From assembly GCA_964035575.1 (NCBI GenBank), contig OZ037890.1:744001-808000 (forward strand): a DNA stretch of 64,000 nucleotides, in the 5' to 3' direction. Under the pieces are notes generated by a model, which was not told the origin of the DNA, ran no database searches, and saw nothing but the letters and a program-made list of their open reading frames with translations. The translations under genes and the position numbers were made by a program. This DNA is from Rhynchopus sp. YZ270_cl-10 (taxonomy: Eukaryota; Euglenozoa; Diplonemea; Diplonemida; Diplonemidae). Of the stretch, positions 5,064 to 52,513 are shown piece after piece (the first letter of the stretch is position 1; every line of letters starts with the position of its first letter).

Positions 5064-6080
5064 ATGCCAAGGACCAAGAAGAAGGAGGCTATGGAGGATC
5101 TGTATGAGACCGAGCTTCTGGCAGGGTTGAAGTCAAGCACTGCATACAAAACGGAGTGGAATAAGTTTTTACAACACAATAAAATCACGGGGCGGAAGCA
5201 GCCAAGAGAAGAACATGTGGTCTCTTACTTGACACACCTGCGCGAAGAACGCAGCTACAAAGCCAGCTCATTATGGTCGTGCTACTCTAAGCTCAACTTT
5301 ATGTTCAAGACGGAGTTCGACTTTTCACTAAAGGAGTACCACCGCATCGGGCTGTTGCTGAAGACCTGGGGAAGTGACGAATCGACGAAGAAGAGCAAGA
5401 CGTTTTCGAAGGGAGAAGTGGAGATGTTTCTCAAGATGAGCGAGTTGAGCGACTGCTACTGGTGTGTCCGCAAGGCTTACGTCGCGGTGTGTTTTCTGTC
5501 GGGAATGAGATGCACAGAAGCACTGATGCTTGAGATGACAAATTATCAGGAATCACCAGTGGGATACCTCTTCACGTACCAGCACTGTGCTAAGGTGAAA
5601 AAGGCCGACATGGAGCGTGGGAGGTTTGTGGTACCAAGAGACAGCATCTACTTTTGTGTGGTGGAGGAGTACCTGAACCGGCGCTCACCAGTTTCACAGG
5701 AGGGTCGCTTCTTCATCACTGGAACTAAGACGACAGCTGACAGAACTACTACTGGGACCTTTCGTGTGCAACCTCTTGGCATCAACAAAATGTACGGCAT
5801 ACCTGCAGAAGTCGCGAGGGTGCTTGCGCTGGACGGTTCGTACACTGGGCACAGCTTCCGCAGGTCTTCTGCGACTCAAGCCGCTGAGGCAGGAGCATCT
5901 ATTGTACAGATGCAACGCCACTATGGGTGGGTCAGTCAGGCAATGCCACAAAGGTACACCGAAGTCACACAGGCCGGTCAAGTTGCGATGTCACAGCTGT
6001 TGACACAGAACAACAGTCCCCCAACTCAGACGCCACAAGAAGTCAAGATTAACATCAATGTGCAACAGAACAAACCATGA
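5064..6080 (+). CDS. tyrosine recombinase of a Crypton-like transposon
   Basis: A 338-residue protein. The N-terminal ~110 residues look like a helical core-binding domain (SSTAYKTEWNKFLQH, VVSYLTHLRE). The catalytic half has all the family landmarks: arginine I in LSGMRCTEAL near residue 148, a candidate lysine in AKVKKADMERG, the H-x-x-R box in GHSFRRSSAT near 263, a second histidine in MQRHYGWVS and the nucleophile tyrosine in QRYTEVT near 298. The frame is uninterrupted and the catalytic set complete, so the enzyme may be active. It would cut and join DNA at the flanking palindromes through a covalent 3'-phosphotyrosine. No GCR1_C-type DNA-binding tail as in fungal Cryptons is seen; the tail after 310 is polar and Q/N-rich. 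Confidence 0.85.
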   Translation: MPRTKKKEAMEDLYETELLAGLKSSTAYKTEWNKFLQHNKITGRKQPREEHVVSYLTHLREERSYKASSLWSCYSKLNFMFKTEFDFSLKEYHRIGLLLKTWGSDESTKKSKTFSKGEVEMFLKMSELSDCYWCVRKAYVAVCFLSGMRCTEALMLEMTNYQESPVGYLFTYQHCAKVKKADMERGRFVVPRDSIYFCVVEEYLNRRSPVSQEGRFFITGTKTTADRTTTGTFRVQPLGINKMYGIPAEVARVLALDGSYTGHSFRRSSATQAAEAGASIVQMQRHYGWVSQAMPQRYTEVTQAGQVAMSQLLTQNNSPPTQTPQEVKININVQQNKP

Positions 6081-10047: not shown

Positions 10048-10275
10048 TGGTCATTTTTTTTCAGGATTCTCTTTGTTATATCAAGGGAAATGGGGCGAGG
10101 GGGGTGTGTCACACCTAGAATTCTCCCTCATTATAGAGCAAATCAAACATTTATTTTTCAATTTCTCTTTCATTTTCCCCCGCTACTTCACACCCCACAG
10201 GGAAGGTTGTTGTCTGTGTGTTTTTTTTCTCTTTTTCTTTCTCTTTTTCTTTTTTGTTTTTTTTTTTTTGAAAAA

Positions 10276-13203
10276 ATGGCAACACGACGGGCGTGGCTGT
10301 GCCGTGTCCTGCCTTTGTTCAATAAGGCGAACTGTTTTGTGTCGCTCCCACAGGTTGCTGCGGACGGTCTTAAGGAGGAGGGCGGGTTGCTGGGGGTGGT
10401 GGTGGTGGAGCTTCATGGGAGTGGTGGGTGCACCTACGCTACATGGGACCACTCCGTGCAGCCTCGCTCAGAAGACGGCGGGAATGAGATAGGTGTACCG
10501 GTCAATTTGATGCAGCAGATGGGCCTGCAAAAAGGAGACCAAATCCAAATCCGCGTCACCCCCAGGGCAGGCCCCGAAGCAAAAGGAGTATTTGTCGAAC
10601 CCGCCTCCGTCGACGACAGCGAAATCGTTGAGCACAACGCAACACGTCTTGAAGATCTGATTCTCCGCCAGCTTCGCATTGCTTATGATGGCCTCGTTTT
10701 CCCTATCGTTGTCCGACACGGAATTCATGTCATGATGAAAGTGGAACGGATAGAGGCTCCTTCTGGTTCGCCTTACGTTATTCTCGGAGATGGGTCCGAA
10801 CTTTATGTCAAAACGATGACGAGACAGCAGAAGACGACAGAAAACCCTCCTCTTTCCGCTCTTCTTCGCACAACCGAACCTAAGGAGGGAACTTCTACGG
10901 TATCTGTTAGCCGCGCTCTCTGCGAGAAGAAGAGGTGGGTGGAAGGTGCTGTACTTCCTTGCCTCTCTTTCACCTCTTTGGTATCAGCTGCGTCAGAGGC
11001 TGTAGAAGCAAAGAGCACAAAGGGAACAGCATGGACCGGTACACCAAGCGAGGCCGCTTTACGGCGTATTGTCTTCGATGTTACCATTTCTATTGATAAC
11101 AGCAATGACAGTTCTGCACTCTGCACCCCTTCTGCTGATCTGGGGATTATTAGAGGGTCTCGCATTTTGATTGATCCTTCGATGCCTTCTTCGGGGGTTC
11201 ATGAATCTAAGGTGAGCACAAAGGGTTGTCATAAAATGCGTAGTTTATGTGCAAAAGTCCATCCCACCGCGTGGACTGAATTGCAGAGCGCCCTACAAAT
11301 GCATATTCAAGAAGAACCGAGGGTGGAGTCGACTTTGAAAGGCGGGGATCGTTCTCTTCTCTCTGGAGTGCAAGGGAATGTGTTGGTGACGGCTGCAGGG
11401 GGGTGTGGGAAGAGCTTTGTTGTAAATGCTCTGATGGGGGCAATGCAGTGCCATGCAACGCAGTTTGACCCGCAGATGCTTTTGGAGGAATATCTTCACG
11501 CCGATGCTGAAGTGCAGAAGGCTAAGACAAAAACGGCGGTGCTCCTCGCAGGGTTTCGTAAGAGCCTTGCGGAGGCTTCTTTGAACGCTCCGTCTGTTCT
11601 TTTTATTGATAATTTGGAGGTATTGTTGTCGGGGAAGGCTGGTACGACGTCACCTACAGCAGATGCAAACGCAGATATGTTGGTTTCAATGTTTGCTTCG
11701 GGCTGTAATGCTGGAGGGGAGTGTGCTTCGCTTGCGTCGCAATGGGCTGCAAGGATGTCTGGGGAGCAATGTGGCGGGGTGACTATCGTTGCTACAGCGG
11801 CGTCGGTCGAAGCGTTGCCTGTCTCTATTGTAAAGCTTTTTGCGACGGTTGTCAAATTAGCGCTGCCCAACCAAGAACAACGCCGTGCCATCTTGAAGCA
11901 TTGTCTGAGTGATGCGCACCTCAGTGTCGAAAGAGAAGGGAGCGGGAAGGTAAGCCTCGCAAAGCTCAGTCGCGATACAAACAACCACACCCCCAGGGAC
12001 CTTGCGACTCTTGTCATCAAAGCGGCCCATCACGCTCGTATCAGCAGACCCGATATCGAGACCCCAGCAATCACCTCCAAAGATATAGAAGCTGCGAGAC
12101 ATGAATACACCCCCGCATCCCTTTCAGGTACAAAGCAAGCAGATGACGATGAAACGCACGCAAAAGGCTGGAGTATCGTCGGAGGAATGGATGAAGCGAA
12201 GCGCGTTTTCAACGAAGTTGTCATTCTTCCTACCAAATACCCGGAACTTTACAAAAACCTGCCGGTTAAAATGCGGTCCGGAATTCTTCTCTATGGACCT
12301 ACTGGGTGCGGGAAAAGTCATATCATTAGGGCAGCTGTTCAAGAAGCGGGTATTACTTGCATTGAAGTTGCGGGACCAGAACTTCTTAACAAATATATTG
12401 GACAGTCGGAGCAAAAAGTGCGGGAGGTGTTTGAGCAGGCAGCTGCCGCTGCACCGTGTGTTTTGTTTTTTGATGAATTTGATTCGATTGCACCGCAGCG
12501 TGGGCATGATAATACTGGGGTGACCGATCGGGTGGTGAATCAGCTGCTTTGTCACCTTGATGGGGCAGAGGGGAGAAGTGGGGTATACGTTGTGGCGGCG
12601 ACAGCACGGCCTGATTTGATTGATAAAGCACTACTCCGACCGGGTCGTCTTGATGCATCAATCTACTGTGGCATGCCTACCCCCGCAGACCGCACCTCTG
12701 TCCTCAAAGCTTCGTCGCATCAACTCAGTTTTGACGATACAGTCGACCTCCAAGAAATATCTGACAAAGCGGAAGGATATACCCAAGCCGATCTGGCCGC
12801 ATTGCTCAGTACTGCTCGTCTCCGATGCATGCAGCAGGTTTTGCAAACAAGCAGCATGCTTGCAGGAATGAACGTCGAAGGGGGGGAGGAGAACACAGAC
12901 AAAAAGGAGTCCACCACCTGGTCTGCAACGAACACAGAGGGCAAGGCGTACGATGAGGTGGAGACTTATGTGGGGGATCTTGGGTTGCTCGCGGGGGGCG
13001 TGGCAGGGGGGAAGGTAGCAACCCCGGTCGTGCCGAAGGTGAGCCAGCAGATATTGCTGGAGGCCTTCAAGCAGTCGCGCGCATCAATCTCCAAGTACGA
13101 TGCGGAGAGAAATGCAAAGAGGTACGCTTCCTACCAAGAGGCCCGCAGTGGTGGTGGTGCTAAAGACGACAAGAAGAAAGGCCAGCGTACTACCATGGCT
13201 TGA
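10276..13203 (+). CDS. PEX1: peroxisome biogenesis AAA+ ATPase PEX1 (peroxin-1)
   Basis: A 975-residue type II AAA+ ATPase. I place the start at ATG 10276 after a long pyrimidine tract; upstream in-frame sequence is poly-Phe read-through of that tract. The N-terminal ~180 residues fit the PEX1 double-psi barrel (NCFVSLPQ, then QIRVTP and FVEPASVDDSEIVEHNA). The first ATPase domain has a Walker A AAGGCGKS near 372 and Walker B SVLFIDNLEVL near 440. The second has GPTGCGKS near 673, VLFFDEFDSIAPQRG near 730, the PEX1 hallmark RGHDNTGVTDRVVNQLL and ALLRPGRLD. PEX1 with PEX6 pulls ubiquitinated PEX5 from the peroxisomal membrane for recycling. D1 lacks a normal second-region-of-homology arginine motif, which is usual in PEX1. 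The stop lies 14 bp before a transposon. Confidence 0.93.
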   Translation: MATRRAWLCRVLPLFNKANCFVSLPQVAADGLKEEGGLLGVVVVELHGSGGCTYATWDHSVQPRSEDGGNEIGVPVNLMQQMGLQKGDQIQIRVTPRAGPEAKGVFVEPASVDDSEIVEHNATRLEDLILRQLRIAYDGLVFPIVVRHGIHVMMKVERIEAPSGSPYVILGDGSELYVKTMTRQQKTTENPPLSALLRTTEPKEGTSTVSVSRALCEKKRWVEGAVLPCLSFTSLVSAASEAVEAKSTKGTAWTGTPSEAALRRIVFDVTISIDNSNDSSALCTPSADLGIIRGSRILIDPSMPSSGVHESKVSTKGCHKMRSLCAKVHPTAWTELQSALQMHIQEEPRVESTLKGGDRSLLSGVQGNVLVTAAGGCGKSFVVNALMGAMQCHATQFDPQMLLEEYLHADAEVQKAKTKTAVLLAGFRKSLAEASLNAPSVLFIDNLEVLLSGKAGTTSPTADANADMLVSMFASGCNAGGECASLASQWAARMSGEQCGGVTIVATAASVEALPVSIVKLFATVVKLALPNQEQRRAILKHCLSDAHLSVEREGSGKVSLAKLSRDTNNHTPRDLATLVIKAAHHARISRPDIETPAITSKDIEAARHEYTPASLSGTKQADDDETHAKGWSIVGGMDEAKRVFNEVVILPTKYPELYKNLPVKMRSGILLYGPTGCGKSHIIRAAVQEAGITCIEVAGPELLNKYIGQSEQKVREVFEQAAAAAPCVLFFDEFDSIAPQRGHDNTGVTDRVVNQLLCHLDGAEGRSGVYVVAATARPDLIDKALLRPGRLDASIYCGMPTPADRTSVLKASSHQLSFDDTVDLQEISDKAEGYTQADLAALLSTARLRCMQQVLQTSSMLAGMNVEGGEENTDKKESTTWSATNTEGKAYDEVETYVGDLGLLAGGVAGGKVATPVVPKVSQQILLEAFKQSRASISKYDAERNAKRYASYQEARSGGGAKDDKKKGQRTTMA

Positions 13204-21070: not shown

Positions 21071-24000
21071 ATGGGTGGACCGAAGCAGCCCCCTGTGGGT
21101 GAGAATGTTGCACCTGGTACGGCGGCATTCATTGGCTACCCTTTGCGACGTGGTGCGAGCGGTGGGAGCAATCAAAGGTATACTGGGAAGGGTAGTAGCA
21201 GTGGTGCTGGTGTCGGCAGCGCGCCCGGGCTTGGGAAGATGAATATGGCACCGCCCCCGCCGCGGCGCTGGCGGGAGTCTCCGCCACCCACATCCTCCTC
21301 ATCACCACACGACTTTGGCAGGCGAAGCAGTCATTCGGACAGCAGGTCCGCATCCCTCCCACCCACTACAAGCAGCAGACGTGGTGCAAGCCCGTCCTCC
21401 TATCCCCCAAGATCTGTCCGTGGTTCGCAGGATCGCGCTCAGGATCGCCCTAGCGGATCGGCCTCTCGAGTTGATAGCATTCGAGGTGGAGGTGGGGGTG
21501 GTGGTGGTGGAGGGAGTTCACGTTACGGAAGAAGCGACTTCCCCCGCAACAGCGCCCGCCGCGAGTCGACCCCCATCCCAAACAACCGAGAGCGTGACTA
21601 CGACCGTTCGATGTTCTCGGATCAGCCAGGAGAGGACAAGCCCTCCTGGGGTAAGGGGCGTGACTTCACTGGGGACGATGCAAGGCGGTTTGGGAGTAGT
21701 CGCGGTGGGGGTGGGGGTGGTGGTGGTGGTGGTGGACGTGGGAGCTTTGGGGACAGCGCGCAAGGGACACTGCGCAAAGGGGATAGCCATTACCATGGGG
21801 CTGACCGGCATAAGGAGGTCAGTAGTAGCAATAACAACAGCAGCTCCAAGACCAACAGTAGCAGCAATAGCAATAGCAACAGCAACAGCAATGCCAGCAG
21901 CAGCAACGCCAACAGTGACGAGCAGAACAAAGCACGAAAACGGCTCCGCAACCGTTCTAAAGAAACCCGTGGGAAGGCGAAGGAAAAGGACACGGTAACT
22001 GAGAAACCAAAGGAGAAGGAGAAGGAGAAGGAGAAGGAGAGAGAGAAGGAGAAGGGGAAGGACAAAGTGAAAGGGAAGGACAAGGACAAAGTGAAAGAAA
22101 AGGACAAAGCGAAGGAGAAGGAGAAGAGCACTAAGACAAAACCGAAGCCACGAGAGAAGGAGCAGCCTCAATCAAAAGAAAAACCTGCCGACAAAAAGAA
22201 GAGCCGCACCAAGGAGAAGGAACGCGAGCAGAAGACGAAGGACAGCGGGCGTGACAAGGCGCGTGACAAGCCGAAGACAGGCAGCGCCGCGACGACGAAG
22301 GGTGAGAAGGAGGCACGTTCCGCGCAGAGCACTGCCACCGAAGCTGCCACCCCGCCACCAGACACCCATCCCGACACCACCAACACCACCAACACCTCCG
22401 AACCCATGGAGGATGTTGCCCCTGACGCCACCCTTGACGTTTCCGCAGCTGCCACCACCCAGCGTGCTGCATCCGCCCCCCCTCCTGCATCCGCCCCTCC
22501 TGCAGACAGCGAACCCGCCGCACCAACACCCACACCACCTACACCGACCCCAACCACACCAACTGACGCACCCAAGGTTCCACGCGAGCCTTCACCCCCA
22601 ACAGAGCCTGTGTCTGAGAGCGTGCCAGCCCCTCCCGAGGCTTCTGACGTAGCTATGGCGGACGTAGCAGAACCGAAGGAGCAACCCGAGGAGCAAGACC
22701 CGGTCAGAGAGGCGGAAGTAGAGGTGATGCAGGTTGACGCAGTTGAGACGGTCGCAGTGGTACAGCAGCAACCTGAAGTGGAGGTTGTGGAAGTGACGGA
22801 GGTTGTGGAGGTGGTGGAAGTGGTGGAGGTGGTAGCCAGCCCCAAGCCAGACGACGACACTGTGATGCAGGAGGAGTCGTCGTTGCCGCCCCCGGCTCAG
22901 TTTGTTGCGCCAACCTCACCAGAACCTTCTGTGGTGCGTGAGGCCAGTCCGGTCCGGGTGGAAGTTCCGGTGAACGTCGCACTGTCGCCACCTCCTGTGA
23001 TAGACTGTGATGAGGAAATGGTGGAGGAGGAGCTGCCTTCTGGTGCGCAGTCGCCGCTCGCGAATTCAGATTTGGCTTCAATGGATGCGCATCCTAGCAG
23101 AAAGAGGAGACGGACGAGCCCTGACGACGATACGCGCATATCAGTTCTCGAGGGTGTGCAGATTGCAGCAGAGCAGGTCCATCCTTTGGGATGGGTGCGT
23201 GCCACAGCAACGTCTACTTCGGTTCCAATCCCATCAGTGAATGGAATCGCATTGGCGCGGGAACAGATGAGCAAATCGAACACTTCGCCAGAGGATTCAC
23301 ACCTCACTACGAGACAACGTGCGATCCGCGCCACGAAGCAGAGCGAGAGCGAGAGCAAGCTGTGGACACAGTGGGCACCGGGCTACCGTTCTTCCTACGT
23401 CCCTGCGTCACGCCTCAAAAGCAACAACACGGTCCGCAAGCAGACAGACACCAAAGGCCGCGAATCCTCAGATGAGGAGGAGGAGGAAGAGTCGGCGTCC
23501 TCCGAACCCACCGGCCCCATGCCTGCAGAAGCGCAACTGGTCAAGACGGTGCTCCCTCCCCCGCTCATGACAAACAACCTAGCAGCCTTCGCACGACATC
23601 TGAAGGGATGCAAAAAGGTGGTCGTCTGCGTAGGAGCTGGCGCCAGTGTTGCTGCAGGTATCCCTGACTTCAGAACACCCGGCAAAGGGTTGTACTCGAA
23701 CGAACGTCTGAAGGAGTACAACATCCCAAAACCCGAGGACGTCTTCAGTCTCCGTTACTTCAAACGCCGCCCCGACGCTTGCTATGGCATGCTTAACGAA
23801 ATGTGGCCCGGGAAGTGGCCACCCACCCGGGTGCACTACTTCCTCCGCCTCCTCCACGATAAAAACATGCTACTGAGGGTCTACACACAGAACATTGATG
23901 ACCTCGAGCGCATGGCTGGTGTCCCCTCTTCGCTTCTTATTGAAGCGCACGGTACGTTCTCTTATGTGCAATGTACAGATTGCGGCTTTCAACCGGCTGT

Positions 24001-25739
24001 CGAATATGCGAAGGCAGCGCTGGCAAAGGGAGAACGTCCGATCTGCCCCGAATGTCAACGCACCTTTCCGGATCCTCCTGCGTTTAGAGCGAAGAAGGCG
24101 CCGCACATTACACTGCCTTCGCAGACCGAATGCTTGCGGATCTTTGTGTATGGAACGTTGCGTCCTGATGACACTTCCATGATCGAACCAGCACCCATCG
24201 CTTTGGCCGGCATGGAGTACAGAAAGGCCTTTGTCAAAGGACTCAAGCTCTACCATGACGGACGACCTTATGTACGGGTACCAGACCCTGCTGCGACTAT
24301 GGAGGACTGTGTGCAGGGGTTTATGATTAGGTGTCGGGATCTAGGGCAATTTATGAAGAAGCTTGGGGAGATCGATACGCGTATCGGGTATCCTACGTTG
24401 TGCGAGCGTGCAAAGGTGTTGGCGCATCCGAGCGATGGGGGCGTGCCCGAGGCAGCGTATATCTACCATTACCCTGCCTGCGCAACGCATACGGAGATCC
24501 CCTATGGGGATTGGGAGAGGAGGAGGGAGTGGCGGCAGCTGCCTGAGATACGGGGTCTCATCAAGCCTGGGGTGGTCTTCTTCGATGAGGAGCTGCCGCC
24601 GGAGTTTGCCCCGCAGCAGATCACGGAGGACATGAAGGAGGCGGAGGCGCTGATCATCATTGGGACCTCGCTCCGTGTGACGCCGTTCTGCTGGCTGCCG
24701 CATCTAGTCGACACAGCGTGTCCACGTCTGCTTCTCAACCTCAACGCAACGGAGGTAGGTGAAAAGGCTGGCTTCGCATTAGACTTCCCCGGATGGCGTG
24801 ATGTCGCCCACGATGGGGACTGCCAAGCCGCGGTGACGATGCTGTCGGAGCTGCTCGGGTATGTTTTTTTCTTTTTTTTTTTCCTCGCAAAGTGTGTTTA
24901 GAAACCAGACAAAGAGAAAGCCATTTGACGTATACCCCAGAACCTCTAGACTGTCAGGCTTCTTTTATTTGGTGGGAGTCACCTCTCGAGGACTGTCGTT
25001 GAGGCTAATAGGGGTGCTTTCATTTGGAGGAATGGTTCTAATTTTGAGATTCAATTATTTTTTTGCAAAACAGATGGGGCAACGAGCTGGTCGGGTTGAA
25101 GGCGGATGGAGACGCAAGGATGCGGGAGCGATGGAGAGAGGAGGTACGTGCACTTTTATTCGTTCATGCATTTTTTTTTTTGTTTTAAATTTATTGATCG
25201 ATAATTTCAAATACTTTCTATTCACCTGTATTTGAACATATAAAGAATACAACACGATGCTGTTGAGATTCGCTGTATGCTGTCTTTTTTTCTTCCTTTT
25301 AAGGCAACGTAACACCCAGTCCATCTTAACAAATCTTTCTTTTCCACTCACATCCCACCCTTTGCATAAGCTCGACCCGAGCTGCGTTTTAACACATTTC
25401 AACTTTTTCTTTTTCCAGGAGGAGGCAAAACGGAAGAGCATACGAGACCACAGCTGTTCTTCGTATTCTTCTATAGAGGGGCCTGATACGCTGACGTTTT
25501 TTGAGGGTGATTTCCACTTTGAAAGCGATGATGACGATGAGGTCAATGCAAAGGAGGCAAAAGAAGCGAAAGAAGTGAAAGGCGGTAAAGATGCAACGCC
25601 TGCTGCACCCACCGTAGCGAAGGGAGCCAAGGCAGGTCAGGACAGCCAGAAGCACTCTAGACAGACGAAGCTCCAAACCACTCCAGCTCAGCCAGCGCAA
25701 GCGAAATCTACCAAAGGGACAAAACGGAAACGCAAGTGA
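21071..25739 (+). CDS. giant sirtuin with GGCT/AIG2-like domain inserted in the catalytic core
   Basis: Three exons, 21071-24858, 25074-25143 and 25419-25739, give 1,392 residues. Residues 1-830 are low complexity: Gly/Ser/Arg-rich, Asn/Ser-rich, Lys/Glu-rich, then Pro/Thr and acidic stretches. The SIR2 core follows: VGAGASVAAGIPDFRTPGKG near 855, TQNIDDLERMAGVP, catalytic histidine in IEAHGTF, and zinc ligands CTDCGF and CPECQ. Where ~10 residues normally lead to the next strand, about 150 intervene, with FVYGTLRPDD near 1023 and IGYPTLCERAKV near 1105, typical of the AIG2/gamma-glutamylcyclotransferase-like fold. The sirtuin resumes with IKPGVVFFDEELP and IIGTSLRVTPF. Exon 2 supplies GWGNELVGLKAD, the normal sirtuin end; exon 3 adds a Lys-rich, probably nuclear tail. 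NAD-dependent deacylation is expected. AATAAATAAAG near 25855 may be a poly(A) signal. Confidence 0.88.
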
Positions 25740-43466: not shown

Positions 43467-44738
43467 ATGTACATTCGGGTATGTGCAGACATCGCGGGGA
43501 AAAAGGTGAATTTAGAGCTTCCTTTCAATGGCGTGCCGAGTATTGGGGAGTTGACTAGGCGGATTGATGACGTGTTTTCCTCTGAGATGCGGGTGTTGCA
43601 GCCAGGGTTTGGCGAACGCTTCTTGACAACGAAGATGCAGGTGTACGACGACCGACATTTGAAGTGGGTTGACCTCCTGAGCTCGGACCAGATCACGACA
43701 GACCGCTGTCAGGTCTACGCCTTCAAGGAGAACGGTGGATCCCCTGTCCGCGACATCCAACAAGAGATGCCCGCCCCCCGCGCACCCTCCGCCAGCTCCG
43801 TCCCCTACCACAGCTCCTCCCCGCAGCGCAGTGTAGGTGGCTACTCCCCGGGCGGCAGCTACCAGCACGTCTCCCCCCTCAGCTCCGAATGGCGTGTCGG
43901 GAAGGAACGTCCCCAGGTCCCCTTCCAGGACAAAATCGACACCACCTTCCAAGACTTCAACCACTCCCGATCCGGGTCAATCAGCCATGGGGAGCTGACA
44001 AACGGATTCAAAACTGTGGACATCGACTTCACCGCGGGGACCCTTGATGAGCTCTTTGTTAAAGCAGACCGCAACCAGGACCAGCGTTTGACTCCAGAGG
44101 AGTGGCGGGCGTGGTGTGGGGTGTACCCCAATACGTTGGACTGTGTGTACTTCAGGGGGCGGGACCGGGTGGAGGAGGAGGAGGTGAACAGGGCGTCGAG
44201 GCGTATCCAGGATGATCTTGTGCAGGCGGAGTCGCGTGAGCAGCAGCTGCGTCGCGAGCTGGATGAGATCCAAGCACGCAAGGCAGACGGGCAGCGTCAG
44301 ATGGAGGTCTTCAGACAGCGCCAGGCGGCCTTCCAGCAGCGTCGCGACACGCTTGAGCAGCAGGAGCGTGACCTGATGGAGCAGGAGATCCGCCTCGAGC
44401 GGCAAAGAGACCACCTCAGAACACAGGAGCATCGTTTCAACGTCGCAGCACATAAGTTCGACCAGGCAACTGCGGTATGTACAAAAAGAATATGTAGACA
44501 ATGGTGTGCCCTATATAGGGCTATAGTGTATACCCTAGAAGTACCCAATTTACACCTAATTTTGGGAAAAATCACACCAGGCATAATGTTAGAATTATTC
44601 CACTAAAAACGGCTGCGGGGAAAAGAAAAGAAAAAGGCCCCTGGAAGTTCTTCCAAGCCATGTGAGAGAGTGCTGACCAAATCAACTTATTCACAGGCAA
44701 CCGCATCGCCCCGCCGTGCACTCAGAACTGGAATGTGA
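43467..44738 (+). CDS. BILBO1-like protein: ubiquitin-like N-domain, two EF-hands, coiled coil
   Basis: Exon 1, 43467-44474, ends in phase 0 before GTATGT. A short exon at 44697-44738 would add 13 residues and a stop, giving 349 residues. Residues 1-92 (DIAGKKVNLELPF, MQVYDDRHLKWVDLLSSDQI, CQVYAFKENG) resemble the N-terminal domain of trypanosome BILBO1. A Ser/Pro linker precedes two EF-hand loops, FNHSRSGSISHGEL near 161 and ADRNQDQRLTPEEW near 197, then YPNTLDCVYFRGRD and a coiled coil to the exon end. Order and spacing are those of BILBO1, which polymerises into the flagellar pocket collar. Alternatively the gene continues through exons at 45086-45132 and 45441-45489. The match is from memory of the family, not a search. 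Confidence 0.7.
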
Positions 44739-46225: not shown

Positions 46226-49200
46226 ATGGGCGATCCTCCTGCAGAAAAACGGCAGACATGGGCGACCGATATGTTCCCGACCCAGGGGGATATAGAAATG
46301 GACCAAATGGGGAACGGCGATTATGAAACCGATTTGGGGTCGCCGCCTCCGTCCGAGGAGATGCTGTCGACGGGGACACCGAGGGGGTTTGCCGCGTCGT
46401 CCGCTTCTTCTGCTTCGTTTTCGTCGTCGTCATCGCTGTCGGAGCTGCGAGCAACCCGCTATGACAAAGATTTCTTAAACGGAACCACAGGCAATGCAGC
46501 ACAAACCCACGACACAGACCAAGCCCTTGCGGACCTCGCAGAAGACGTGCCTTTAGCTTGGCCACGCTGGCGAGCAGAGTTCCGTCGATACTTCTTTCAC
46601 GCCACCTGGCTGCACCACGTCTTCACCGCCGCCATAGTACTTAACTGCATTATCCTCGCTATGTACGACCCTTTAGATAAAGACCACTCCAACGGACGCA
46701 AAGCATTGACCGTCATTTTAAATGCTGGAGACGCGTTTTGTTCGATTTTATACTTTCTTGAAATGTGTTTCAAGATCATTGCGATGGGTTTCTTCGAATA
46801 TCTCGGCAAGAAATGGAATGTCGTAGATGGGGTCATCGCGATTGTCGGGATTGTCGCAATGATACCGGTCACCCCAGGATCGCTTGACGTCGTCAAAATG
46901 ATTCGCCCTCTAAAACTTTTAAACGCCATTCCAACCATGGAGCGCATCATGAACTCTTTAATCGAAAGCATCGCCACCCTCTTTTATGTGGCAGTTCTAT
47001 ACTTCTTCTTTTCCCTTGGTATGGGGATTATTGGGGTGCAACAATGGGAAGGGCTTTTTCTCAAACGCTGTCTTCTCAATGAAACCCGCTTTTACATCTC
47101 TGAAACTGGGTCGATCGATGGGTACGACAGTTTCACCGAATTTTCAGGTATAATCAATGGCATGGCGTCTGCAGCAGGGGAGACCGATATGAACCTCTCT
47201 GTCTTGCAGACGGGGTTTGCTGCGTTGCAAGGGTTTGCGGATTTTGAATCAAATCTGACTCTGTTGCAGAAGGTTGCCTCTACCGACGCAGTCTACGAAG
47301 ATGAAACTGTGTGCAAAACGTTGGAGGAGTTTTCCTCCTTCGGTGGGTTCTACTGTCCGTATATGTACGACTGTTTGGACTATCAAAATTTGCAGAACGG
47401 TTGGCTCTCATTTGACCATATAGGAGTCGCAATGTTGACACTGTTTCTCGGCATTTCACTAGAAGGCTGGACCACCACGATGTACCAAACCATGAACGCG
47501 ACGAGCTATTTTGCGGTCTTCTACTGGATTTTTTTGATTCTGATTGGATCCTATTTTTTGATGAACTTGACGCTTTTGATTATTGCGGAGACGTTTAATT
47601 CTTCGATTATGCGGGCAAAAGCGAAGAAAAACGAACTAAAAAAAATCCGCGCAAAACGCGCAGAAGAAGCAGCCGCTGGGGACCACACCTCCACCTCCAC
47701 CTCCGATGATGACATTGATGGCGACGCAGACTTACACAACTTCTACCTCAAATCAACCGGTGTAGACTACAAACGGCTACAAAAAAAGGCGGAAAAACCC
47801 AAATCGAAGAGCAGGCTTGATGTATTCAAAAAGATTGGCTTGGAGATATACTTAAAGCTTGCCCAATGCGGCGCTGCGACCCGCCCGCAGGCACTACGAG
47901 AAAAACTGAATTCCAAAATTCTACGAAATGTGTGGTTTCGCCGATTTCTCATCTTTTGCATTGTGGTCAACACGGTTACCCTCTCTGCAGAGTACCAAGG
48001 GCAAAGCGAGCGCACTACACAAGCCTTCAACATTCTTAACATCATCCTCACCTTCATCTTCACCATGGAAATCTTTCTAAAGCTCTACGTAGGAATGCGA
48101 CGCTACATCAAAGACCCCTTCAACCTTCTCGACATCATCATCGTTGTCTCCGGTCTCCTTGAATTCTTTATGTCCGGAGAAGGCTCCATCAGCGCCCTCC
48201 GCTCCCTCCGTGTCCTCCGCGTCATCCGATTGGCAACCTATTTCAAGCAACTCCAAAAATGGGTTCACATTCTGATGAGCGCCTTCCGAAGCGTGCTGTA
48301 CATAGTGTTGTTGTTGTTGTTCTTGATTTTTGTGGGGGCGATATGGGGGATGATGCTCTTTGGTGGGGGGTTATGTGAAGAGGCGGAGGAGGGGCCGGTG
48401 GGGGTCGATCTGACGATATTTCAAAATATTACGGTGGAGCCGTTTTCGACGTTTTATCGGCGTCTCAATGGGGTTTCACGCAGTCCTACTGATGGAAGAT
48501 GTAAACCAGGTTTTGTTAACCCACGATACAACTTTGATACGCTCCACAACAGCATTCTCGTCACCTTCCAAATTATTACCGGGGAGGATTGGAACACCCT
48601 TCTTTACCTTACAATGGATAACACCTCATGGCTTGCGGGGGTATATGGGTTGAGTATTTTTATTGGTGGGAACTATTTGATTTTGAATTTATTTGTGGCG
48701 GCGTTGTTGTGTCGTGCAAACGGCGAGCCGATGACCATCTCCGGAAATAAAACGCCTGCGAATTTACAACTTCGTCAGGTCGCCTTTGCGTCTCTTTCTC
48801 CACAACAGCTGGAGGAGTTGAGATTGATTGATGAGGAACAGTTTAAACATCGGCTACTCCATTATGGAGTAAAACGGAGCATGCTGACTTCTTTGGGACG
48901 TGGTTTTGGTGCAGCAGAGTTTGCGGAATGTGATGATGAAGTGCTCAATACTTTAGGCATCACAGATCAAGCATGGCGTCTCAAGCTCCTCCGTCTCGGC
49001 AACGCGCTTAGAAATGATCCAGACGGCTTTATGGAGATTGATCAACATATTCGATATGCCGCAGAATGTCTCCACCCACTGCTCTGTCGTATCCATAAAG
49101 ATTTTCGTATTGCAGCGATTCAAGATGATCATAATAAACAGCAGGATCAGCAGCATACTTTGTCTTCGTATATTAAAGAGCAGAGTACCTTAACGGAGCT

Positions 49201-52200
49201 TGCGGAGCCGTTGTATGAGGAGGAGATGGCGTCGTTTTCTTCGGTTTCGCATGAACAGAAACCAACGGAGTTAACGCATTATAGGCATTTATGTGACCCA
49301 GAAGAGGTCTTGCATTCAGTCGCATCGTATGGGGATGACCCAAGAGTGCTGCAGCAGTGTTTGATTATGAAGTATCCACGATACGCTTCGGAGTCGAAAT
49401 ATTTGTTGAAAACGTGGATTGCGGCGTACGATGCGAAGATGAAGGAGCGGGACAATGTTGCGACAAAGGTGAGCGAAATGCTCAAATCTAACAAAGATTT
49501 TGATGCATCTTCTGCCAAAGTCGGTATCGATGCTGTTACCAGCGTAGTCGAAGCATATGACGACGCACCAATGCTTTTAGTCGAAGACCTCAAACTCCGT
49601 TACGTACTCCTCGACCGAGAAATCCTTTTCTTAGAAGACTGGAAATCCGAGAGAGACGCCCGCGAACAAACCTTCTCAGAATTCTACAAAATGATGCGCG
49701 AATACGAAGCCTCAAAGCACTCCTTCTTCAACACCTTCAAGCTAGCACAATCCGACAATGCATTATTCATCTTCCCCAGATCCTCCGACACCGAAGCAGA
49801 TTCTTGGGCAACCCAACACCTCATCAAATTTCTCAGCCAATTCCGATCATGCGTTATAATAATGTGCGATTCGCGGGTGTTCGAATGGTTTATGGTGTTA
49901 GTCATCATGGCATCTACGGTGTGTCTGGCAATAGACACTCCGTTACGACCACCAGATCATCCTCAAGAAGTGTTAATTGAAAAGGTACAGTTTGTTACGA
50001 TGTGCGTTTTTGCGTCGGAGACGCTGTTGAAGAGCATTGCATATGGGTTTTTCTTGAATGAAGATGCTTATCTACATCGCGATATGTGGAATCGTCTGGA
50101 CCTATTCATCACAGTCACCTCCATTATAGGTGAAATGCTTCCCCTTCCGCACTCAGGAATGGATCTGCATCGGTCCTTCCGCATGCTCCGTCCTTTGCGA
50201 TTCATCAACAGGCTGGACGGCGTCAAGGTAGTGTTCACCGCAATCCTTTCATCGCTCCCACCGTTAATGAACGTCACGCTATTGTCGTTGGTAGTATGGT
50301 TGATATTCGCTATCGTAGGACTACAACAATTTAGCGGGCGGTTTCATAAATGCACGGACAAAGAATATGGTGATATGGATGGGGTTTACTCCACTCGAAT
50401 TGAATGCATCGAAAATGGATGGAAATGGGCTAACGCCGATGCGAATTTCGATGACATCGGACACGCTTTTCTTACCCTCTTTCAAGTCGCAAGCCTCGAA
50501 GGTTGGCCGACTGTAATGTATAACTCTATCGACGCCGTCTCCTACGACGTCGCGCCACAGAAGGACCGAAACCCCTACCTCGCGTATTATTACATAATTT
50601 TCATCATTTTTGGATCCTTCGTTATTGTCAACCTTTTTATCGGCGTTTTGATTGATACGTTTACCGCACAAAAGCAGTCAGTAGGAAAGTCGTTGGTGCT
50701 TTCCCCTGGCCAAGAGAGGTGGGTGAGGGTGCACTCCGAGATGTTGCAGATGGTGAACGACGAGCTAAGCAAAGACCCGCCGACGAACATTGCGCCCTTC
50801 CGACAGAAGCTGCACCGGATTGTTACTACCAGGAAGTTTGACCTTGCGATTGCGGTGTGCATTGGGATTAACATTGTTGTGATGGCTTTGGAGCATCATC
50901 CTTCCTCGGAAGCGTTTGATGTCTTGGCTGTGGTGGTCAACGATGTCATGCTTGGTGTTTTTGCGTTGGAGGTTGCGGCGAAGGTGATTGCTCTTGGCCC
51001 GAAGGCGTTTTTCAAGAGCCCATGGTGTCGCTTCGACCTTGTCATCGTGTTGTCCAGCGCTGCGCCCTTCATCATTGTGTCGCTGCTCGACCTCTTCGGC
51101 AGCCATGAGTCCACGCAGACCCGTGTGAACAGCTTCCGTGCGCTGCAGCTCCTCCGTCTCTTGAAAATGATGCGTGCCTCGCGTGGCATCCGGCGTATGC
51201 TCAAGACTTTGTTCCTCTCCGTCCCATCGCTCTTCAACGTCTCTGCTGTAGTCGCGTTGCTTCTCTTCGTCTATGCGGTATGTCAAAGGATTGACCCTTT
51301 GCATTAAAGACAAATCTCTGGTAAGAGGTGAATAGAGAGTGTTAGAAACAACCAATTCCCGTTTTAATAGCCTTTTTTTTTGGCCTCAAAGAGGTTTGCT
51401 CTTGGCCAGGTGGTCAGTGGGAGCGTATTGCAGTAATAAAAAATGTCACCACAACAGGTCCTCGGGGTTCAGGTCTTCTCCCGCGCAACGTGGGGGTCTG
51501 GTCTGAGCAGGCTTGCGAATTTCACTCAGTTCGGCCCGTCTATGCTTTTACTGTTCCGGATGCTGACTGGAGAGGAGTGGCATGCCTTTATGTACGACTG
51601 CATGGCAACGCGGGAGCAAGGGTGCGAGGAGCACATTGGCGGGTGTCTGCCGTATTGGTGGGCCCCTGTGTACTTTGCGTCCTTTTGCCTTGTGGGGATG
51701 TATATGCTGAGCAACCTTTTTGTTGCTGTGGTCATTGACAACTTTGGTGCGGCGAATGCCTCTGTCTTGGACGAGGCGTATCGCAACACCCTCACACAGC
51801 AGTGGCGGCTCTACGCGACCGGCAAGCGCCTTCCCCTTGAACGTCTTGAGGGCTTCCTCACTGGCATTGGGCCGCCCCTTGGGCTCTACCCAGACTCGCT
51901 CCTCGTCAAGCCCTTCATCAAGGAGCTTGACCTCCACGCCTACACCCGCCGCAACGGAGACCTCTATATCCACCAAGACGAAATCTACCCAAAGCTCTTC
52001 TCTCACGCCTTCGGCACGCCACTCCCTGAGAAAACCCTTAAAAAGCTCCGCAAACGGCAAGACTCTGTCCTAAAGAGCGTTCGTGGGAAGGACAAAATGA
52101 CGCCCCTCAGCGAGATCAACAGCATTGTGAAGGTGCAGGCGATATGCAGGGGGTTTCTTTTGCGTGCGAAGATGCAGAAGTGGCGGGCAAGCAATCCAAC

Positions 52201-52513
52201 GATTGCAGGGAATCGCTGGCAGACGTTTACCAGCGACGAAGGCGAGACGTACTACTACGACACAGTGGCAGGGGTGACACAGTGGGAGAAGCCCTTCCCA
52301 AGCCTCTCAGCAGAGGAGCTGCGAAAGTACGGCAAAGGCCCAAGACGAAGCCGAGGCCTCTCGGTCGCACCGCACGCACGCCGTCTCCGAGGCTACAACG
52401 AAACCGTCTGGGTACAACTCACTGACGAAGACACCGGGACCCCATACTACCACGATATTGCGACAGGAAAAACCACCTGGGATCAACCCCTGATCTTCTG
52501 TCATGAGATTTGA
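46226..52513 (+). CDS. four-repeat voltage-gated calcium channel with SAM-like, IQ and WW modules
   Basis: Exons 46226-51277 and 51458-52513 give 2,035 residues. The start is the first ATG after a TTTAG; upstream exons are possible. Four six-helix repeats are visible. Pore glutamates are in SLEGW (I), TGEDW (II), SLEGW (III, near 1423) and TGEEW (IV, near 1720): an EEEE ring, as in Ca2+-selective channels. S4 helices are clear in II (LRSLRVLRVIRLATYF), III and IV (LQLLRLLKMMRASRGIRRML), weaker in I. The intron splits S5 of repeat IV. The II-III linker holds a SAM-like helix bundle near 860-930 (LGITDQAWRLKLLRLGNALR). After repeat IV come an IQ-like helix near 1908 (VQAICRGFLLRAKMQKWR) and two WW domains, ~1936-1968 (TYYYDTVAGVTQWEKP) and ~2000-2030 (PYYHDIATGKTTWDQP). 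Flagellar or plasma-membrane Ca2+ entry is likely. Confidence 0.88.

Follow-up and report, generated by a model that had tools for sequence, protein, structure and literature searches.

The window analysed here, a stretch of 64,000 nucleotides from the diplonemid Rhynchopus sp. YZ270_cl-10, carries on its + strand a gene for a sirtuin whose core is opened by a nested AIG2/GGACT-like domain of the GGCT fold. A sirtuin core split by such an insertion had been proposed in the first-pass annotation, and profile searches confirmed it. The open reading frame (ORF) listing gives a + strand frame that is open over 1276 codons (21071–24901), as the annotation had said of the continuity of the frame. 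In a Pfam hmmscan of this ORF, the SIR2 family (PF02146) was matched in two stretches with 154.1 bits (cut-off 24, E 4.9e-45), and between them, at ORF residues 1024–1149, the GGACT family (PF06094) was matched with 35.0 bits (cut-off 22.8, whole ORF). The insert searched alone reached 39.3 bits against the same cut-off (E 1.1e-9). On the DNA, the N-terminal part of the SIR2 profile (1–139 of 180), with the motifs GAGAS, GIPDFR, and TQNID, lies at 23633–24061, the nested domain (profile 1–119 of 120) at 24140–24517, and the C-terminal part of SIR2 (profile 130–180 of 180), from IKPGVVFFDEELP on, at 24527–24685, which in the genome profile search is contig C58, 768527–768685. The profiles thus returned GGACT for the insert and SIR2 on both of its sides.

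In a sirtuin-core alignment of 82 rows (the window protein and 81 of the 120 proteins listed from the protein search), the window row keeps the catalytic His (H126, codon 23948–23950), the nicotinamide adenine dinucleotide (NAD)-site residues N107, D109, S25, D32, and R34 of the motifs GAGxS, DFR, and QNID, and all four zinc cysteines (C134, C137, C158, and C161, with codon starts at 23972, 23981, 24044, and 24053), so the claim that the SIR2 motifs are present stands. Among solved structures, phmmer aligned the protein to SIRT3 with an E value of 1.9e-59, split into core residues 10–161 and 324–431; 162 residues separate the two aligned pieces, which abut in SIRT3. An AlphaFold2 model of the core had a mean predicted local distance difference test (pLDDT) score of 84.7 and a predicted template modelling (pTM) score of 0.73, and its Foldseek alignments to SIRT2 and SIRT3 span the whole insert (4bv3, template modelling score to target 0.89, root mean square deviation 1.8). 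In this model, the Rossmann and zinc-module fold closes around the insert. Motifs, Rossmann fold, zinc module, and catalytic His are all as in human SIRT2 and SIRT3 and in yeast Hst2, which points to a sirtuin of the SIRT2/SIRT3 type and a putative NAD-dependent lysine deacylase. The substrates of sirtuins are lysines acylated on the epsilon-amine.

The insertion site is after the fourth zinc Cys and before the strand IKPGVVFF. In the window protein, 167 residues separate that Cys from the LIKP/VVKP strand; an animal sirtuin (P0016) has 2 there, and in SIRT3 the Cys leads almost directly into the VVKP strand. Both the profile match and the predicted barrel fold place the insert in the GGACT/GGCT family; the structure prediction supports the GGCT fold of the insert as well as the closure of the sirtuin fold around it, as the annotation had anticipated. 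An NCBIfam search gave no family for the insert, and phmmer of the insert alone against the PDB gave no GGACT protein, its top row (1wjz, E 0.042) being taken as chance. A profile built from the four nested inserts now known (see below) had 1vkb as its sole match in the PDB, with an E value of 1.4, and the fold search was needed to place the domain. The GC content at third codon positions was 0.61 both for the insert and for the SIR2 stretch before it, and 0.76 for the SIR2 stretch after it.

A second feature of the sirtuin is an Asp (24584–24586) in the segment FFDE, where most sirtuins compared, including SIRT3, have the Gly of FFGE. Over the 82 rows of the alignment, this column holds G in 74, D in 4, a gap in 2, S in 1 (P0009), and E in 1 (P0056), and the four with D are the nested sequences that extend to the site. 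A paralogue in the same genome that has no insert, L005, reads FFHE.

The residues of the nested domain were compared in a GGCT-fold alignment of 12 rows, 4 nested copies and 8 others. The catalytic Glu, which corresponds to E82 of human GGACT as fixed by the structure 3jub against its E82Q mutant 3jud, is present in 11 of the 12 rows, that is, in the three other nested copies and in 8/8 of the others; the sole exception is the window copy, in which the codon ATC (24383–24385) gives Ile (Ile271 of the core). The catalytic acid had been sought at the Glu of EID, but this is the wrong position: with its Asp, EID supplies the first residue of D-x-x-E, which is invariant in 12/12 rows, and the Glu position is that of Ile271. 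The tyrosine of YxR is also changed, to Cys in the window and to Cys or Ser in 4/4 nested copies, while Tyr stands at this position in 6/8 of the non-nested rows as aligned. It would be equivalent to Tyr87 of ChaC2, which is described as a pocket residue in PMC7022552. The YGxL motif is kept in the window as FVYGTL, whereas its third residue is Gly in P0001, and both FVYG and a later Tyr (alignment column Y115) are kept in 4/4 nested copies. Because the acid/base Glu is Ile and the YxR Tyr is lost in all four copies, there is no support in the window species for the proposed link between deacylation and the turnover of gamma-glutamyl compounds or glutathione, and the alternative that the annotation had also named, that the insert is a binding module, fits these two losses better than a coupled enzyme. 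Whether the three relatives with the Glu (P0001, P0002, and Diplonema papillatum) have enzymatic activity is left open.

The same nesting was found elsewhere when it was searched for. The protein search gave 183 matches at E <= 0.001, of which 120 were listed, from the 7998 candidates sharing most words with the query. Among the matches listed, P0001, P0002, and P0004 hold both the SIR2 and the GGACT Pfam families, and P0003 holds SIR2 plus the beginning of the insert. The two D. papillatum sequences, P0003 and P0004, have 169 identical residues in common and were therefore taken as a single gene split between contigs. The nesting is thus seen in three sources besides the window, namely a EukProt TRINITY ORF derived from transcripts (P0001), an ENA contig (P0002), and D. 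papillatum in two overlapping pieces, and the stretch of 167 residues in the window protein corresponds in these to 168, 172, and (as a composite) 250 residues, respectively. A search for longer proteins (5 matches from 6382 candidates) revealed no further nested protein, and a search that used the insert of P0001 as the query gave 2 matches among 385 candidates but missed the known carriers P0002 and P0003, which have all or part of the domain. The annotation had named splicing-out of the extra stretch as an objection to its reading; this is answered for the family by the transcript P0001, while the gene of the window species itself is known from genomic DNA.

On a sirtuin-core tree of 38 rows, in which the bootstrap had not settled and the genome's own L006 formed a long branch, the four nested cores made one clade (100/100), with D. 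papillatum nearest to the window copy by tree path. This clade lies within a group of eight (100/98) together with D. papillatum P0005, L005, and the EukProt ORFs P0006 and P0007. In the six-frame, exon-by-exon profile search of the genome, 25 SIR2 and 3 GGACT matches were obtained, and the two families coincide only on contig C58, in the gene described here. The 25 SIR2 matches above the cut-off amount to a large sirtuin set (L004–L023), some of them being pieces of one gene. One of these, L013 (contig C70, minus strand), is a sirtuin-like ORF without the GAG motif and with GG for the catalytic HG (VIELGGTF), and is likely a pseudo-sirtuin.

At the insertion site, several sirtuins that lack the domain have a long loop (52 residues in P0005, 40 in L005, and 40 in L006). 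That a long loop at this site would be general to diplonemid sirtuins was considered and rejected, as the rows nearest to the nested clade, P0006 and P0007, have 12 residues and L004 has 2. Pairwise identity among the four nested proteins is 67–84% in the N-terminal SIR2 part, 64–74% in the C-terminal part, 47–58% in the insert, and 3–23% in the linker that precedes it, and 48/138 insert columns are invariant. The insert of the window copy has 8 private changes, compared with 4 in P0001, 11 in P0002, and 7 in D. papillatum; since the 8 do not stand out, the window insert is not visibly decaying. One insertion of an AIG2-type domain into this sirtuin loop would best explain the origin of the nesting and agrees with the tree. 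A recent copying of the genome's own GGACT gene, L001, was rejected, as L001, which among solved structures matches human and mouse GGACT best, is only 22% identical to the insert. Six bacterial and viral loci (L024–L029) are 24–35% identical to it and share FVYG..LRP and GDW, but this resemblance is partly by construction, because the loci were picked with patterns derived from the insert, these motifs among them, and a bacterial donor is left open. Another GGACT-like match in the genome, L003 (contig C13), is divergent, with FDTM for YGTL and two in-frame stops, perhaps with an intron.

The gene probably ends beyond the stop of the first open frame, by way of two GT-AG introns and two further exons. 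Exon 1 (21071–24858) holds a long, low-complexity N-terminus followed by the SIR2 core with its nested domain and is followed by a GT donor at 24859. Predicted exon 2 (25074–25143), after the intron 24859–25073, would encode GWGNELVGLKADGDARMRERWREE, which resembles the C-termini of P0001 and P0004. Predicted exon 3 (25419–25739), after the intron 25144–25418, is open up to a stop and would encode a charged C-terminal tail with the end KGTKRKRK; it is the weakest part of the gene model. Both introns were predicted from the sequence and from similarity to relatives rather than from a transcript of the window species, and both are downstream of the nested region, neither touching it. The spliced model has 1392 residues from the first ATG, and its predicted C-terminus GWGNELVGLKADGDARMRERW (LGWGNELVGLK...) resembles those of P0001 and P0004. 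P0002 reads LGYVFIVF... at the position of LGYVFFFF in the window, which suggests that P0002 continues into an intron placed as in the window gene. Which codon starts the gene is uncertain, and it may be further in than 21071, because similarity to P0001–P0003 can be read by eye only from near 23300. There, at 23300–23374, is the motif HLTTRQRA...LWTQW, with TRQR, TRRQ, and ARQR stretches followed by W in P0001, P0002, and P0003. Upstream of the sirtuin, 21071–23100 comprises ~676 in-frame codons, many of them in low-complexity sequence (Gly, Ser, Lys-Glu, and Val-Glu runs), and the N-termini of the relatives are shorter and different.

Other genes were recognized in the window, all on the + strand. 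The ORF at 5064–6080 matches tyrosine recombinases (Phage_integrase, E 3.3e-9), with an N-terminal SAM-like domain below the cut-off, and is possibly part of a mobile element. At 10090–13203 is a PEX1-like AAA ATPase with PEX-1N and two AAA stretches, and at 43467–44606 an EF-hand protein that weakly, at a score under the cut-off, matches the N-terminal domain of BILBO1, a flagellar-pocket protein of kinetoplastids that would fit a euglenozoan genome. A long ion-channel gene or genes occupy 46226–52513, where one ORF has Ion_trans in four stretches and the next has another Ion_trans and two WW-domain stretches. A tRNA search of the window found none.

We know of no other sirtuin opened in this manner, and the annotation's view of the architecture as unusual is supported. 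No account of a sirtuin with a nested GGCT-fold domain was found among the titles and abstract openings listed from the open-licence literature on diplonemids and sirtuins, and neither sirtuin nor Sir2 occurs in the main text of PMC7052976. PMC12699882 mentions one SIR2 family protein in the mitochondrial proteome, in a passage that gives no details of its domains. The sirtuin SIR2rp1 of the sister lineage, the kinetoplastids, also has a large internal insertion (PMC5854310), but that insertion is described as a disordered, serine-rich stretch of ~76 amino acids in the beta8–beta9 connector, whereas the window insert follows the fourth zinc Cys and is a predicted folded domain. Compared with GGACT/AIG2-like proteins (PF06094; 1vkb, 3jub, and 2g0q), the window domain differs in being nested in another enzyme and in having Ile for the catalytic Glu and Cys for the YxR Tyr. 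The open frames examined of YkqA (2qik), YtfP (1xhs), and the bacterial and viral FVYG...GDW proteins have no sirtuin part, and the catalytic Glu is present in 6/6 of the bacterial and viral loci, in contrast to the Ile of the window. GGCT-fold-like modules do occur within larger proteins, as in the Kluyveromyces allophanate hydrolase (4iss) and Paulinella crTPpart2 (9i09), neither of which is a sirtuin.

The explanation that we favor, at a probability of about 50%, is that the gene encodes a predicted-active sirtuin of the SIRT2/SIRT3 type in which the nested AIG2/GGCT-fold domain, having lost its Glu, likely acts as a binding module and not as an enzyme of its own. The main argument for a binding role is that the insert has been retained while the catalytic Glu is dispensable in the window species. 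The sirtuin part would act as an NAD-dependent lysine deacylase, perhaps in the nucleus, given that basic stretches precede the TTRQR motif and occur in the predicted C-terminus. We take the FFGE/FFDE segment to line the acyl-peptide groove, as in known sirtuins. This groove is between the zinc module and the Rossmann domain (PMC5854310). The barrel, which comes after the zinc module and stops ~20 residues short of the FFDE segment, may then sit beside the groove. What it would bind there is either a partner or a ligand, the latter being a gamma-glutamyl-type metabolite or a protein side chain, and this binding could select or gate the substrates of the sirtuin. The change from FFGE to FFDE in the nested copies would be a possible matching adjustment on the sirtuin side.

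Several points weigh against this explanation. The three other nested copies keep the Glu, and the family as a whole may therefore not be restricted to binding; the loss in the window copy could be recent. The model has pLDDT values below 50 at core residues 195–204 (the RPDD region), 271–276 (the Ile position), and 303–316 (the end of the insert). FFDE could reflect lineage drift, since L005, which has no insert, and also P0009 and P0056 depart from Gly. The orientation of the domain is a proposal, and activity, ligand binding, and localization are all predictions.

Among the alternatives, we consider it unlikely that in most diplonemids the nested cyclotransferase removes gamma-glutamyl from lysine epsilon-amines, or cleaves gamma-glutamylamines, while the sirtuin removes acyl groups from the same type of lysine, the window species having lost the second activity. 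The substrates of GGACT are gamma-glutamylamines (PMC7022552), so that the GGACT and sirtuin chemistries would meet at the lysine side chain, and P0001, P0002, and P0004 keep the catalytic Glu and Y-G; yet the window has Ile for the Glu, all four copies have Cys or Ser for the YxR Tyr, and P0001 has Gly in YGxL. In another alternative, which seems rather improbable, the barrel would be a sensor that binds a gamma-glutamyl compound, for instance glutathione, and so switches the sirtuin and couples NAD-dependent deacylation to thiol status. The retention of FVYG and the Tyr of column Y115 in 4/4 copies agrees with it, as does the reported loss of trypanothione synthesis and trypanothione reductase in diplonemids (PMC7052976), which would leave the glutathione and thioredoxin systems; the ligand is presumed, however, and at two positions the window copy departs from residues conserved in the enzyme family.

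We likewise give little credence to a passive insertion, in which the domain sits in a tolerant loop with a structural role or none. That the loop accepts length follows from the domain-free P0005, L005, and L006, but the identity of the insert and its invariant columns are far above what the adjoining linker retains, and the short loops of P0006, P0007, and L004 argue against a generally tolerant site. As to an artefact of assembly, reading frame, or splicing, which we regard as very improbable, the transcript support does come from the relative P0001 and not from the window species; the nesting is nevertheless common to four sources, a transcript ORF and three of contig origin, and the predicted introns are outside the nested region. 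For the family, an artefact or a spliced-out insert is ruled out by P0001 and the separate contigs.

The nested sirtuin would be a natural test of how an inner domain can re-aim a deacylase, and the series of copies with the Glu kept or lost may offer a chance to watch an enzyme turn into a binding module. A further proposal, which we put forward as a long shot, is a diplonemid lysine eraser of two chemistries, in which a single polypeptide would combine an NAD-dependent deacylase site with a cyclotransferase-derived pocket, nested next to the zinc module, that recognizes gamma-glutamyl-epsilon-lysine marks, maybe cleaving them where the Glu is kept, with the window copy as a reader. If this were true, gamma-glutamyl-lysine would be a possible mark.

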